Positions 7,263 to 16,706 of a stretch of 25,678 bases of DNA are shown piece by piece. The notes beneath the pieces were generated by a model that did no database searches, was not told where the DNA came from, and saw only the letters and a list, made by a program, of their open reading frames with translations. This DNA comes from a virus, in IMG/VR virus record IMGVR_UViG_3300022752_000348, positions 1 to 25,678 of that record; one strand, 5' to 3'. Position 1 is the stretch's first letter; each line of letters begins with the position of its first letter. The translations under genes and the position numbers were made by a program.

Positions 7263-8732
7263 TTAGTAGTACTCTGTGTTTTCATGAATAACTTTTTCAT
7301 CTTCATAATCCTCGGGATGACCTATAAAGCCTCCCTGTCTAAATCTCATCAATGCTTGTGTCATTGAGTCTACAAGGTCATCATTATCCCCAAATGGAAA
7401 TGCCGCGCATTCCTCAATAACCTCTTCTGCAAAGTCAGCCTCTGGCGCCCAAATTTGTCCACTCTCAAAAAGAGGGGCAACGGCGTTTACTCTAGAATGT
7501 TTATCATTTCCTTTGCTAGGTGTAAAGTTGATAACAGGTATTCCCATCTTACGTAATTCATAGGTTAGTGGTAATCCTGATGCTTTTGACTCTACAACTA
7601 CTGAATCCGGTCTCCAATAATAATATTGTTGTAGCGCTTCACGTCTAAGTTCTGGAAACTCTAATCGTTTTTTTAAAGCATCTAATAATATTAAATTAGG
7701 TCCTGAATCTTCATCTGGATAAAATACTCCCCAAGTAGTGATAGCAGAGTAATCTGCAGTTTCTTTTTTTAAGAATGCAGTATCATAACTTTGTATAACA
7801 TGTTCTAAAGCTGGAATATAATCTTTGTCCCACTTACGCCACCATTCACGTTTAATGATTGAACCTTCTTCTGATGTTGGATTCTGCATCCATTGTGCAT
7901 TCCATTTTTGTAAACTTAAAGATGCTTTAACAGATTCTAATTCTTCTAACTTCCAATACTCTGGCCACACTGGTTTATTAGTTGGAAGGATTGCTGGAAA
8001 CTGTACCACTTCCCATTGATCTGATTTTAATCTTTTCTGAGCCCCGATCAACGCTCCGGTAAGATCTTTCAAAGACCAACGCGTCATAACCACAACAATT
8101 TTTCCACCGGGTTGTAATCGCTGACGTGGTCCTGAAGTATACCATTCATATGCACGCTCCAACGCTTCTGGATTTAAAGCATCTTGTTCCGAGTGCGGGT
8201 CATCAATGATAAGTAAATCCGCTCCGCGGCCCGTGATTGCCCCACCAACACCAGCTGCAAAGTATTCTCCACCTTGTTCCGTTTCCCAACGGCCCGCGGC
8301 TTGTGAATCTTCGCGCAATGTAGTTTTAAAATATTTTTTATAATCAGAACTATCAATTAAATGTTTTGCTTTTCTACCAAATCTAACTGCAAGTTCAGTA
8401 GTATGGGTTGTTTGGATTATTTTTAATTTTGGATTCTTACCAATCATCCAAGCGGGTAGCAGGAAGCTAGCGAATTCAGATTTAGTATGCCTTGGTGGCA
8501 TGTTAATAATTAATCTATTAATCTTTCCTTCTGCAAGTTTATTAAATTGTTCAGCAATTTTTTTATGATGTTTACCTTCAACAAAGTCTGGCCAGACAGA
8601 TTTTACAAAAGTTAAAAAGTCTTTATGTACCTTTTCTTCTTTTTTCTTTTCATCATATTTAATTGCGTACTTCATAAACTCCTTACGCGCATCTGGCGGA
8701 AGTTTATTCAAATCTATTTTATCTAGATCCAT
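7263..8732 (-). CDS. terL: Terminase large subunit (packaging ATPase and nuclease)
   Basis: A 489 aa protein. The ATPase part has a Walker A-like MPPRHTKS at 78-85 and Walker B LLIIDD at 173-178 followed by PHSEQD, and a coupling motif VVMTRWS at 215-220. The RNase H-fold nuclease has QSYDTAF (D317), VVVESKASG (E381) and FGDNDDLVDSM (D452/D455), so all catalytic acids are present. It cuts and pumps concatemeric DNA into the prohead with the portal. It is the first gene of the late minus-strand operon, with 830 bp of noncoding DNA upstream. The nearest ribosome-like AAAGGTG is about 23 nt before the ATG, which is far. The small subunit is encoded on the other strand, at 10704-11210. Confidence 0.95.
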   Translation of the reverse strand: MDLDKIDLNKLPPDARKEFMKYAIKYDEKKKEEKVHKDFLTFVKSVWPDFVEGKHHKKIAEQFNKLAEGKINRLIINMPPRHTKSEFASFLLPAWMIGKNPKLKIIQTTHTTELAVRFGRKAKHLIDSSDYKKYFKTTLREDSQAAGRWETEQGGEYFAAGVGGAITGRGADLLIIDDPHSEQDALNPEALERAYEWYTSGPRQRLQPGGKIVVVMTRWSLKDLTGALIGAQKRLKSDQWEVVQFPAILPTNKPVWPEYWKLEELESVKASLSLQKWNAQWMQNPTSEEGSIIKREWWRKWDKDYIPALEHVIQSYDTAFLKKETADYSAITTWGVFYPDEDSGPNLILLDALKKRLEFPELRREALQQYYYWRPDSVVVESKASGLPLTYELRKMGIPVINFTPSKGNDKHSRVNAVAPLFESGQIWAPEADFAEEVIEECAAFPFGDNDDLVDSMTQALMRFRQGGFIGHPEDYEDEKVIHENTEYY

Positions 8733-8929
8733 AAAAAATTTTTATAATTTTTTTTCACCTTTTGATTTATTTATGAAAATGAATTTACACCCTACCCCTG
8801 TCTAAATCAAGGTCTAAAGCCCCAACTCTGGGTCCCCTTTTTATGGTTTAAGGGGGTGGGGGGTCTTAGATCTTTCGACTTTCAAAATCATATAGGGATT
8901 CAAGGTCTAGTCCGGGCACGGACGTGGAT

Positions 8930-9412
8930 GCCGGGCACGGAGCCCGGCGGCGAGCCGCAACAGCGGCGAGACCGGGCGACGCCCCGCGCAGCGGGGAGAG
9001 CGGCGCAACAGCGCCGCACCGCCGACCACGACCCGCGCAGCGGGAGGAGCGCGCCGCAACAGCGGCGCACGACTCAATGCCCGCGCAGCGGGCACGAAGA
9101 GCAGCGCAACAGCGCTGCACGATTGAGGGATGGCGAGCCGCGAAGCGGCGAGCGCACAACCTAGGATTGTATGTTGCGCTAGAGCAACACCGTTGCATAA
9201 TTACAAGCGCCGCGAAGCGGCGCCCCACGACCCGCGGAGCGGGGTGCGACAATATGTCGCATTGACTTTAATGATTAAATAAATATAGGCGCGCGAAGCG
9301 CGCCCCGACCCATAAGCCGCGAAGCGGCGACCCTCGAGCACGCCAGGCGCACAACCTACGCGCGAAGCGCGGACCGCGTGCATCGCAGGCAAGCCTGCGA
9401 CAATTTGTCGCA
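8930..9412. repeat. GC-rich array of about 18 short palindromic hairpins
   Basis: Perfect inverted repeats (left arm start to right arm end): 8930-8948, 8954-8967, 8982-8996, 9000-9017, 9032-9044, 9051-9068, 9079-9093, 9101-9118, 9137-9149, 9172-9189, 9207-9223, 9231-9243, 9245-9261, 9288-9304, 9316-9328, 9359-9371, 9383-9400, 9396-9412. Loops fall into classes: AACA (second, fourth, sixth, eighth), GCA (third, fifth, seventh), GAA (ninth, 11th, 14th, 15th, 16th), GGA, ATA/ATT. Stem sequences differ between copies while staying perfectly paired, for example GCGGCGC/GCGCCGC, GCGCCGC/GCGGCGC and GCAGCGC/GCGCTGC. The GCGAAGC core is known as an exceptionally stable mini-hairpin in DNA. Base composition contrasts sharply with the AT-rich genome. 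Confidence 0.92.
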
Positions 9413-9464
9413 TTGACTATTTGCGGATCGTTGATCTCTAAAATTTGCGAATCAAAAAATTTAG

Positions 9465-9987: not shown

Positions 9988-10356
9988 TTAATTAATCCCT
10001 AATAGTTTATTTTGAATCGCGGTCCAATCATTCTGGGCCGCGATTTTCGCATCGCGGATATTGGATTGGAGCTCGCGGATCGCGGAGCTTTCATAAAGTA
10101 TTACGGAACGGGAAGCGGCTTCTTTTACTAAGATGAAATTACGCTTTGGATGTATCGTATGAAACAATATCTGGTGCGGTGAAAGTCTAATTTTGTTACC
10201 TGTTGCTACTTTAAGTTCAACCATGAAAAAACTACAACAATCATGATATCCTAATAGATCTGGAACGCCAAAAGATGCCCAAGATTCTAATCTTGTCCAA
10301 AAGATTTTAGGTGTATTTTTTTTAACTTCTTTCCAAAATTTAGACTCTTCTTTCAA
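9988..10356 (-). CDS. VRR-NUC-like PD-(D/E)XK nuclease
   Basis: A 122 aa protein. Core motifs: WTRLESWASFGVPDLLGYH (E19 or so and the catalytic D in GVPDLLG), FFMVELKVATGNKIRLSPHQ (the E-x-K of the PD-(D/E)XK site), then a hydrophobic strand NFILVKEA. The 'G-x-PDl-l ... vElK ... lspHQ' order is that of the VRR-NUC/Holliday-resolvase-like phage nucleases, which process branched DNA or break host DNA. It is convergent with the small membrane protein at 9754-9924. The last 33 residues (from SSAIRELQ) are encoded by GC-rich palindromic DNA resembling the hairpin island, so this tail may be an acquired extension. Confidence 0.8.
   Translation of the reverse strand: MKEESKFWKEVKKNTPKIFWTRLESWASFGVPDLLGYHDCCSFFMVELKVATGNKIRLSPHQILFHTIHPKRNFILVKEAASRSVILYESSAIRELQSNIRDAKIAAQNDWTAIQNKLLGIN
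10015..10089. repeat. GC-rich palindromes inside the nuclease gene 3' end
   Basis: AATCGCGGTCC (10015-10025) pairs with GGGCCGCGATT (10035-10045) as an 11-bp stem with one T-G pair. AGCTC-GCG (10070-10077) pairs with CGC (10081-10083) and GAGCT (10085-10089) around a GAT loop. The octamer TCGCGGAT occurs twice (10052-10059, 10073-10080). The composition is like the 8930-9412 array and unlike the rest of this gene. Confidence 0.75.
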
Positions 10357-10703: not shown

Positions 10704-11210
10704 ATGGGTGTACCAAAACAATTAACTCCGATGCAAATGAAATTTGCTGAATTATTAGTTTACAATGAAGGTAGACTAACAGCAACTGAATGCGCAAGAC
10801 AAGCAGGATATGAAGAGGATAGAGCAAGAATAACAGCTTCTGAATTACGTAATCCAAGAAAATTTCCATTAGTTGCTAAATATATTGGTGAACTCAGAGA
10901 AGAAGTACAAAAGAAATATGAAGTTACATTTGAAAATCACATTAGTGAACTTGCAAAATTAAGAGAAGAGTCTAGAGCAAAAGGTGCTTGGTCAGCGGCA
11001 ATTAATGCAGAAGTTGCAAGAGGTAAAGCCGCAGGCTTATATATAGATCAAAAGATTATTAAATATGGTAGTGTAGATTCGTTAACACCAGCTGAATTAG
11101 AAGCTAAAATGAAACAAATATTAGAAGACCATAGAGGTTTACTAGTAGAAGCAGATTTTGAAACTGTCAAAGAACAACAAACAAAATCAGAGCAAATAGA
11201 AAAAGAATAA
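10704..11210 (+). CDS. terS: Terminase small subunit
   Basis: A 168 aa protein. The N-terminus LTPMQMKFAELLVYNEGRLT, then ATECARQAGYE, then ITASELRNPRKFPLVAKYI is the DNA-binding helix-turn-helix region of the Terminase_2-type small subunits (pattern 'ltpkq-x-Fa-x-ly ... A-x-AGY ... np-x-v-x-x-yi'). The middle is a helical oligomerisation region (EEVQKKYEVTFENHISELAKL) and the C-terminus is acidic/Gln-rich. It recognises phage DNA and starts packaging with the large subunit. Here it is on the opposite strand from terL and 2 kb away, with the hairpin array between them. No Shine-Dalgarno site is visible before the ATG. Confidence 0.85.
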   Translation: MGVPKQLTPMQMKFAELLVYNEGRLTATECARQAGYEEDRARITASELRNPRKFPLVAKYIGELREEVQKKYEVTFENHISELAKLREESRAKGAWSAAINAEVARGKAAGLYIDQKIIKYGSVDSLTPAELEAKMKQILEDHRGLLVEADFETVKEQQTKSEQIEKE

Positions 11211-13719: not shown

Positions 13720-14313
13720 TTAGCTTATCCTATTTCCTTTTGATAGGTTTTCGCTAGCCCATAAGGGCTGTAAGTTTGTATAGTGGAAACATTTTGCCTG
13801 TTCTTCTGGTTTTGTCAAGTCAAAAGATGAACATGGAAGTATATGATCTATATGCCATTTTCCATGATTTTTACGTGTCATACCAGGTTTAAATGATTTT
13901 TCTAAATGATCCCAAACTTCTTTTACATCTTTAACACCTAATAATTTTAAAGAAGATTCATTTTTTCTAATTCCTTTTAAAGCTTTCAATATTCTACTTC
14001 TCAAAATTATAGATAATTTAAATTTAGGGTCTTTTTTTGTTTTAATTCTTTTCTTTTCATTTAATAATTTTCTATTCTTTTTTGCCCATTCTTTCATATA
14101 TATTTTTTGTTTAAGTTTATTTTTTAAATCATATTCTTTTTTGTATTTTTTTATTTTATCTCTATATAATAAAAAATATTCTTTTAAATATTTTTTAAGT
14201 TTTTCTTTATTTTTTAAAGACCATTTTTTAAAATATATTTTTTGTTTATTTCTTCTTTTAAAATTATATTTTTTAAAATATTCTTTTTGTTTTTCTTTAT
14301 CTTTGTAAGGCAT
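13720..14313 (-). CDS. HNH endonuclease with Lys-rich repeats
   Basis: A 197 aa protein from the ATG at 14313, which lies 1 nt after the upstream stop; an in-frame extension of 11 codons is less likely. The N-terminal 100 residues are a chain of K/Y/E repeats (KDKEKQKEYFKKYNFKRR and similar units), probably DNA-binding helices. The C-terminus holds KWHIDHILPCSSFDLTKPEEQ then CFHYTNLQPLWASENLSKGN, an HNH site (H of IDH, N of TNLQPL, and the K-G-N end). Such enzymes are usually free-standing homing endonucleases in phages. It is probably a mobile passenger between endolysin and the exonuclease gene. Confidence 0.85.
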   Translation of the reverse strand: MPYKDKEKQKEYFKKYNFKRRNKQKIYFKKWSLKNKEKLKKYLKEYFLLYRDKIKKYKKEYDLKNKLKQKIYMKEWAKKNRKLLNEKKRIKTKKDPKFKLSIILRSRILKALKGIRKNESSLKLLGVKDVKEVWDHLEKSFKPGMTRKNHGKWHIDHILPCSSFDLTKPEEQAKCFHYTNLQPLWASENLSKGNRIS

Positions 14314-14314
14314 T

Positions 14315-14548
14315 TTATTTATGTTGAAACCAATTATATACAGCAATAAAACTTAATAATATAAAAACTACTTGCTGTGTTAATCTTGCCATATCTTTTT
14401 CAATATAAGAAACATAAGCCCACATGAACACAGATACCATTAAAAATATCCATGCAATCCATTGTATATTAATAATAGCTGTTGCCTGTATTACAGAACA
14501 AGTAATACTAATACTTGCAGCTATCCATTTATAAACAGTTAAATTCAT
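14315..14548 (-). CDS. Small polytopic membrane protein
   Basis: A 77 aa protein with three hydrophobic stretches (WIAASISITCSVIQATAIIN; WIAWIFLMVSVFMWAYVSY; VVFILLSFIAVYNWF) and a short charged loop IEKDMARLTQ. It overlaps the exonuclease gene by 4 nt. Similar short phage membrane proteins are common, and their function is unknown. Confidence 0.68.
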   Translation of the reverse strand: MNLTVYKWIAASISITCSVIQATAIINIQWIAWIFLMVSVFMWAYVSYIEKDMARLTQQVVFILLSFIAVYNWFQHK

Positions 14549-15925: not shown

Positions 15926-16690
15926 CTAAAATTCTTTTCTAGTTGATATTCTATTTGCTTTAGAAAGTTTAAAGTTATAAGCATCTACCAAACCTTCAAT
16001 CCAATCTTCTTGGTTCATACAACCTTCCAATTTAGATCTATATTTTTGTATTTGGTCATAAGCAGTTTCAACTTTAAAGTTTTCTAAGTTTTGTATTCTA
16101 GTAAAACCTATACAAAACTTTTTAATTTGTACAAGATCAGGTGCAAAAGATTTTATCTTTAACAACTGTTGTGCAAATCGTCTTGCTTTGTTTTCATCAG
16201 TTATTACAAAATTGCCACTGATGAAGTCTCTATGACAATCACCTTTAACTTTACTACCTTCAATGCTTAATAATATTAAACATACAGATAATGGAAGATT
16301 AAACTCTTCAAAAAATTTACTTATTTTTGAATAAGTTTGGTGATTAGGATGAGATCTATGAGAGAAACTTTTTAAATAATCTCTATATTTCCATCCTCTT
16401 TGCTTATTGTTAATAACTCTAACATGTTCTATGCCTAAGTTCTTAACAGTGATATAAGTTACTGGAAGTTTCAACAATTTACACGCGTTCAAACGATGTT
16501 GACCTTCAATAACTTCTTTGTTTTCGTTAACAATGATTGGATTGATCTGTCCGTATTTTTTTAGACTAACAGCAAGATCATTCACATGATTGTCCGAAAT
16601 GTCCCGATTAGCATTCAATATTTTGAACATTGAATAATCATCGGTTTGTCTTATTATGCTACTTCTTCCAGTAAAAAGAGAAGTATTCAT
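15926..16690 (-). CDS. ParB/Srx-fold protein
   Basis: A 254 aa protein from the ATG at 16690 (AAGGAG 5 nt before it; a GTG 6 nt upstream is less likely). Residues 25-85 carry the ParB N-terminal pattern: NHVNDLAVSLKKYGQINPII, VNENKEVIEGQHRLNACKLL, then KLPVTYITV, with the EGQHR box that binds phosphate/nucleotide in ParB. The C-terminal 150 residues are helical and unlike ParB HTH domains. Phage proteins with this fold are DNA-binding or act as nucleases/nucleotide-dependent switches. It has its own upstream region with inverted repeats, suggesting autoregulation. Precise role unknown. Confidence 0.78.
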   Translation of the reverse strand: MNTSLFTGRSSIIRQTDDYSMFKILNANRDISDNHVNDLAVSLKKYGQINPIIVNENKEVIEGQHRLNACKLLKLPVTYITVKNLGIEHVRVINNKQRGWKYRDYLKSFSHRSHPNHQTYSKISKFFEEFNLPLSVCLILLSIEGSKVKGDCHRDFISGNFVITDENKARRFAQQLLKIKSFAPDLVQIKKFCIGFTRIQNLENFKVETAYDQIQKYRSKLEGCMNQEDWIEGLVDAYNFKLSKANRISTRKEF

Positions 16691-16706
16691 ACACACTCCT
16701 TTATTG

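Follow-up and report, generated by a model that had tools for sequence, protein, structure and literature searches.

DNA hairpins of proven function are few in nature, and the promoters of phage N4 are the model case. The N4 hairpins carry a three-base loop with a sheared G:A pair and lie on the template strand, and the variable bases of their stems need only pair (PMC4496689). Extraordinarily stable DNA mini-hairpins consist of a loop of the type GNA or GNNA on a stem of two or more G-C pairs (PMC4686876). Near terminase genes, TerS has three sites spread over 120 bp in lambda cosB (PMC4669245), and the pac site of SPP1 has direct repeats across terminase promoters (PMC4737164).

The window, by which we mean the whole stretch of 25,678 nucleotides analysed here, is a linear viral record of 25.7 kb with an overall GC content of 32%. 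It is related to two pelagiphages, HTVC027P and HTVC023P, and to phage 023Pt_psg01; the terL genes of these phages share 67-74% DNA identity with that of the window. The gene for the terminase large subunit (terL, 7263-8732) lies on the minus strand and that for the small subunit (terS, 10704-11210) on the plus strand. The hairpin island (8930-9412) sits between them, as the original prediction had placed it, a position that fits a packaging or control site. The window also encodes a GroES co-chaperonin (985-1452), an endonuclease VII-like protein (13720-14346) and a ParB-like protein (15926-16696), and a tRNA search of the window found none.

The GC content of positions 8906-9412 is 67%, against 32% for the fragment. 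A greedy non-overlapping search for perfect stems of at least 5 bp with loops of 3-8 returned 19 palindromes in 8906-9412, compared with a mean of 4.3 and a maximum of 9 in dinucleotide-preserving shuffles, which served as the null. With stems of at least 7 bp, there were 9 palindromes versus 0.5 in the shuffles (maximum 3). Eighteen of the 19 stems fall in 8930-9412, matching the roughly 18 perfect palindromes first claimed there; one of these (9267-9279) is AT-rich and trivial. Thirteen island hairpins fall into two loop classes, AACA (4) and GNA triloops (9, comprising three GCA, five GAA and one GGA). The fixed classes AACA, GCA and GAA described originally were thus seen as stated, with the single GGA in addition.

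The first part of the island alternates in the order AACA-GNA-AACA-GNA-AACA-GNA-AACA, with 48, 51 and 50 bp between successive AACA loops. Along the plus strand run H1 (gccgcAACAgcggc, 8954-8967), H2 (ccccgcGCAgcgggg, 8982-8996, with a GNA loop), H3 (gcggcgcAACAgcgccgc, 9000-9017), H4 (cccgcGCAgcggg, 9032-9044), H5 (gcgccgcAACAgcggcgc, 9051-9068), H6 (tgcccgcGCAgcgggca, 9078-9094), H7 (gcagcgcAACAgcgctgc, 9101-9118; gcgtcgc/gcgacgc in L183) and H8 (gccgcGAAgcggc, 9137-9149). Further hairpins are found on the same strand at 9207-9223 (gcgccgcGAAgcggcgc), 9231-9243 (cccgcGGAgcggg), 9288-9304 (ggcgcgcGAAgcgcgcc), 9316-9328 (a second copy of the H8 sequence, gccgcGAAgcggc) and 9359-9371 (cgcgcGAAgcgcg).

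Two other plus-strand palindromes have the form TGCGACA-NNN-TGTCGCA, with ATA in the middle at 9245-9261 and ATT at 9396-9412. Each directly abuts TTGACT, a -35-like box (9245-9267 and 9396-9418 together with the box). Since palindrome and box occur together in at least 119 viral contig stretches, the palindrome may represent a promoter-tied operator. A second palindrome family, tacaacc-NNN-ggttgta, recurs in these islands (L151:4646, L171:6948).

Using pattern searches and terL searches, we gathered orthologs from IMG/VR and found islands in the corresponding position, upstream of terL, in eight further distinct viral sequences from several metagenomes (ortholog groups L122, L156, L178, L183, L151/L168, L164/L170/L171/L136/L137, L141/L182 and L251). 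Because orthologous islands occupy the same place in contigs of other metagenomes, an assembly chimera, which the original prediction had named as grounds for discarding it, is ruled out. Random GC sequence at this locus in related phages, named there as well, was not what we found; many relatives, however, carry no more than two hairpins, or lack them entirely. The array belongs to the lineage of the window; in the majority of relatives the number of such hairpins lies between zero and two. L178 (TerL identity 89%) contains fourteen GC hairpins, whereas the close TerL relatives L006-L008 (92-93%) contain one or two, showing that array size turns over fast between relatives.

Repeated units whose copy number varies between close relatives are what mobile palindromic elements would produce, and the original prediction had considered a nest of such elements. 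The distribution of the double-hairpin unit argues against this. Its pattern matched 8 viral contigs, of which the 7 examined belong to this terL-island set (L500 being the eighth), and otherwise only 14 GC-rich genome contigs in 257 Gb. A scan for spaced AACA loops returned mostly unpaired repeats, with no new array among the matches listed. Moreover, aligned orthologs match hairpin for hairpin. We therefore regard mobility as highly improbable, the distribution being without dispersed copies at unrelated loci. GC-hairpin arrays in AT-rich genomes are familiar as REP-like and other dispersed palindromic repeats and as GC clusters; those are scattered through genomes, whereas the island is confined to one orthologous locus.

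The compensated stem variants quoted in the original prediction are real, although they compare paralogous hairpins within the window, and orthologs provide a stronger test. In nine distinct sequences, H1, H3 and H5 can each be aligned with its own counterpart, and all 171 of 171 cells of their combined alignment pair (100%, against 91.3% when shuffled). In the two 7-bp stems, H3 and H5, 6 of 14 pairs are variable across the nine orthologs. At these six pairs both sides changed in 14 cells, with no one-sided, broken or G-T case; the alignment rows are related, so that the changed cells should not be counted as independent events. Shifting the partners by 1-3 columns abolished the pairing signal. 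When rows were compared pairwise, the 7-bp cores of H3 and H5 showed 87 two-sided and 0 one-sided differences, while pair 8, just beyond the core, showed 12 and 47, respectively. This contrast indicates that stem length itself is held, not the palindrome alone. Some loci had entered the set through a pattern matching one AACA hairpin (L183 and L251 entered via the terL search); a one-hairpin pattern cannot generate compensation in other hairpins. The alignments thus show pairing to be kept by compensated change across orthologous loci, upholding the claim that pairing persists while the sequence changes.

Pairing of this kind could also be maintained mainly by mutation, through quasi-palindrome correction by hairpin-templated synthesis, with little or no function. 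The perfect stems, the lack of G-T intermediates and the fast turnover of copy number are in line with such a process. Correction should, however, mend the next pair too, yet pair 8 is mostly uncompensated. In addition, the G and the A of the loop are conserved around a variable middle base, and the hairpins are limited to one locus and one polarity. We consider this explanation improbable.

We surveyed polarity in 192 distinct terL-upstream regions, counting unique GC hairpins with stems of at least 6 bp. GNA loops occurred 46 times and their reverse form 0 times; the forward to reverse ratios were 18:0 for AACA and 25:2 for GNNA loops. A C-G pair closes 88 of 89 oriented hairpins (all GNA, all AACA and 24 of 25 GNNA). 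The stable loop form lies almost always on the strand opposite terL, that is, on the template strand of terL, with a per-locus polarity of 158:1, and the remainder of these contigs contains few hairpins of this class. The link to the GCGAAGC mini-hairpin drawn in the original prediction was right, and widens to the whole GNA/GNNA loop class. The AACA loop, invariant save for one AATA, falls outside the known extra-stable class and may, we infer, be a contact sequence.

Stems of 5-7 bp with c-GNA-g loops on the template strand of terL are, by sequence, what N4 geometry requires, and the hairpins might accordingly be promoters upstream of terL that are read by a phage RNA polymerase. The tetraloop hairpins of the island do not fit that geometry, and N4 has three early promoters rather than a late-gene array. 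No match to the RNA polymerase family PF00940 was found in three relatives and the window, a search of little weight given that its positive control was also silent, and the large virion protein gave no polymerase match. We judge N4-type promoters to be quite improbable here.

The hairpins could instead work as RNA, within a structured non-coding transcript running rightward (plus strand) through the array. The RNA fold of the array has a z-score of -9.9, an outer stem around H1 is possible in the orthologs (alignment, by eye), and HTVC027P carries a Flavobacterium-1 RNA (RF02976, E 9e-16; L002:10047-10167) in its terL-terS gap, opposite terL. At the island itself, the Rfam search returned no family match, and no rightward promoter-like site lies left of the array. 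RNA hairpins would favour GNRA loops, whereas 20 of the 25 GNNA loops are not GNRA, and the variable core pairs are without any G-U. From these two features we infer that DNA rather than RNA is the folding molecule. Furthermore, in the single-hairpin loci that were read the upstream gene runs toward terL, so that no mRNA would carry the GNA strand there. An RNA is thus unlikely, and the array is probably a DNA-structure signal. Mismatches of the G-T and A-C types, which would tell the acting strand, numbered 4 versus 2, too few for this purpose, and the DNA parameters used in the strand energy comparison carry no GNA bonus, which makes that comparison uninformative.

In many relatives a single longer perfect hairpin stands in place of an array, about 150-280 bp upstream of terL; its loop class and polarity are mostly those of the array of the window. 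In HTVC023P this hairpin reads ccctggcgcGCTAgcgccaggg, has a GCTA loop and lies 175 bp upstream of terL. Only 75 of the 192 terL-upstream regions contain a perfect oriented hairpin of at least 6 bp, which means that not every phage of the group can depend on the hairpin in this form. Several relatives have the hairpin immediately after a stop codon, as might be expected if the hairpins were terminators forming an RNA-level transcription boundary that separates the terL operon from the genes upstream of it. Stems are almost never trailed by a U-run, the window holds about as many terminator-like matches as its shuffles (3 versus 1.7), and terminators would leave the loop polarity unexplained. 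Such a boundary is very unlikely, and intrinsic terminators were rejected.

In many single-hairpin loci, the hairpin sits shortly upstream of the first of a set of phased direct repeats. The motif GGT[AC]CC[AT] lies near the hairpins and, in 100 distinct regions, has a second copy 60-65 bp farther along, with a spacing of 62-64 bp in 85 of the 100 (counted with the relaxed motif GG[TA][ACT]CC[ATC]). Of 182 regions, 43 have three copies (in one example at -166, -103 and -41 from terL), which spreads the sites over about 125 bp; shuffles gave none. Strict phased pairs numbered 140 near terL versus 4 in 1.98 Mb elsewhere, and in the complete genomes of HTVC027P and 023Pt the sole phased pair is the one at terL. 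In the window, R2 (8830-8836, minus strand) reads GGGACCC in the sense of terL, and R1 (8895-8901, minus strand), 65 bp from it, is a degenerate GAATCCC, which counts against a packaging or control role. A terL promoter-like TTGATT-N17-TAAATT was noted by eye at 8782-8810 on the minus strand, with similar sites in relatives; the consensus promoter scan did not report it. The phased repeats are a finding in their own right for a large phage group and a testable candidate for a terminase or late-control site. Together with the fixed polarity relative to terL and the single-hairpin form, they go beyond the content of the original prediction.

Contig ends are about six times more frequent within 1.1 kb upstream of terL than over an equal distance downstream (62 versus 10). 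We sought a fixed cohesive end among those upstream of terL and found the ends to be diffuse and their sequences to differ; no fixed cohesive end emerged, which counts against a packaging site. This excess may reflect hypervariability, hairpins or genome ends.

Between the island and terS, on the minus strand, lies a gene for a 122-aa protein (9988-10356) whose predicted fold (pLDDT 82) has the Holliday junction resolvases Hjc and RecU as its top matches (best E 3e-3, TM about 0.5 in the predicted fold search). Such a resolvase-like protein could act on cruciforms. The gene is conserved in many relatives, including beside loci without hairpin arrays, which counts against its tie to the array. 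In 023Pt_psg01, the match to this gene falls in a stretch without an annotated gene.

Taken together, the array is real and unusual, and apparently an undescribed cis element. Folding as DNA hairpins is well supported by the comparisons above, whereas the packaging function is a proposal. Our leading reading, held tentatively, is that the island is a cis-acting DNA-structure site in a control region of the terminase locus, most likely for packaging initiation. Negative supercoiling between divergent transcription units, or a single-stranded stage of replication, would free the terL-template strand, which would then fold into a row of mini-hairpins recognised by protein. The hairpin block and the phased GGT[AC]CC repeats would together form the terminase-locus control region, a nucleoprotein site. 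Its most likely job would be packaging initiation, as a pac/cosB-like site loading terminase; control of the terL late promoter is a close alternative, and transcription control fits too because the repeats span the promoter-like region. One hairpin beside the first repeat would be the simple form, from which an alternating array of AACA and GNA hairpins, built of units about 50 bp long, would have developed in the lineage of the window.

More doubtful, though possible, is that the locus represents a new type of phage signal, in which a polar, covarying mini-hairpin array marks the terminase locus and is read as a single-stranded or extruded structure by the packaging machinery, beside candidate binding sites six helical turns apart. 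In the open-access literature we found no phage hairpin array described, an absence that is weak because it covers open-access papers only. The main text of the HTVC027P transcriptome paper makes no mention of intergenic, promoter, antisense, non-coding, sRNA or terminator, and the HTVC023P-type genome paper none of intergenic, noncoding, termini or promoter. If the proposal is true, an array at a fixed locus, with compensated changes and one polarity, in relatives of SAR11 phages (HTVC023P, HTVC027P) would offer a natural system in which to study how DNA structure is recognised; were packaging to start here, an abundant phage group would gain a pac/cos site open to testing in cultured relatives.

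Compared with known systems, the island resembles the N4 early promoters, the hairpins of the virion RNA polymerase, in its short GC stem, c-GNA-g loop, location on the template strand and compensable stem. In N4, the virion RNA polymerase begins transcription about 11 nt away from the centre of the loop. Unlike in N4, the hairpins here form an array of up to about 14, also include AACA loops and lie beside a late gene, and no virion RNA polymerase was found. With the stable mini-hairpins d(GCGAAGC) and GNA/GNNA the island has the loop class and C-G closure in common; those are studied as short oligonucleotides, whereas the island is a natural covarying array at one locus. As in lambda cosB and SPP1 pac, direct repeats adjoin a terminase gene, extending in the three-copy regions over about 125 bp versus 120 bp in cosB, although they lie beside terL rather than terS, and cosB and pac have no hairpin array. 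The phased pair is also like pac and cos sites in being unique per genome near terminase genes (HTVC027P, 023Pt). By layout, then, the hairpins would seem akin to N4 promoter hairpins and the repeats to cosB and pac.
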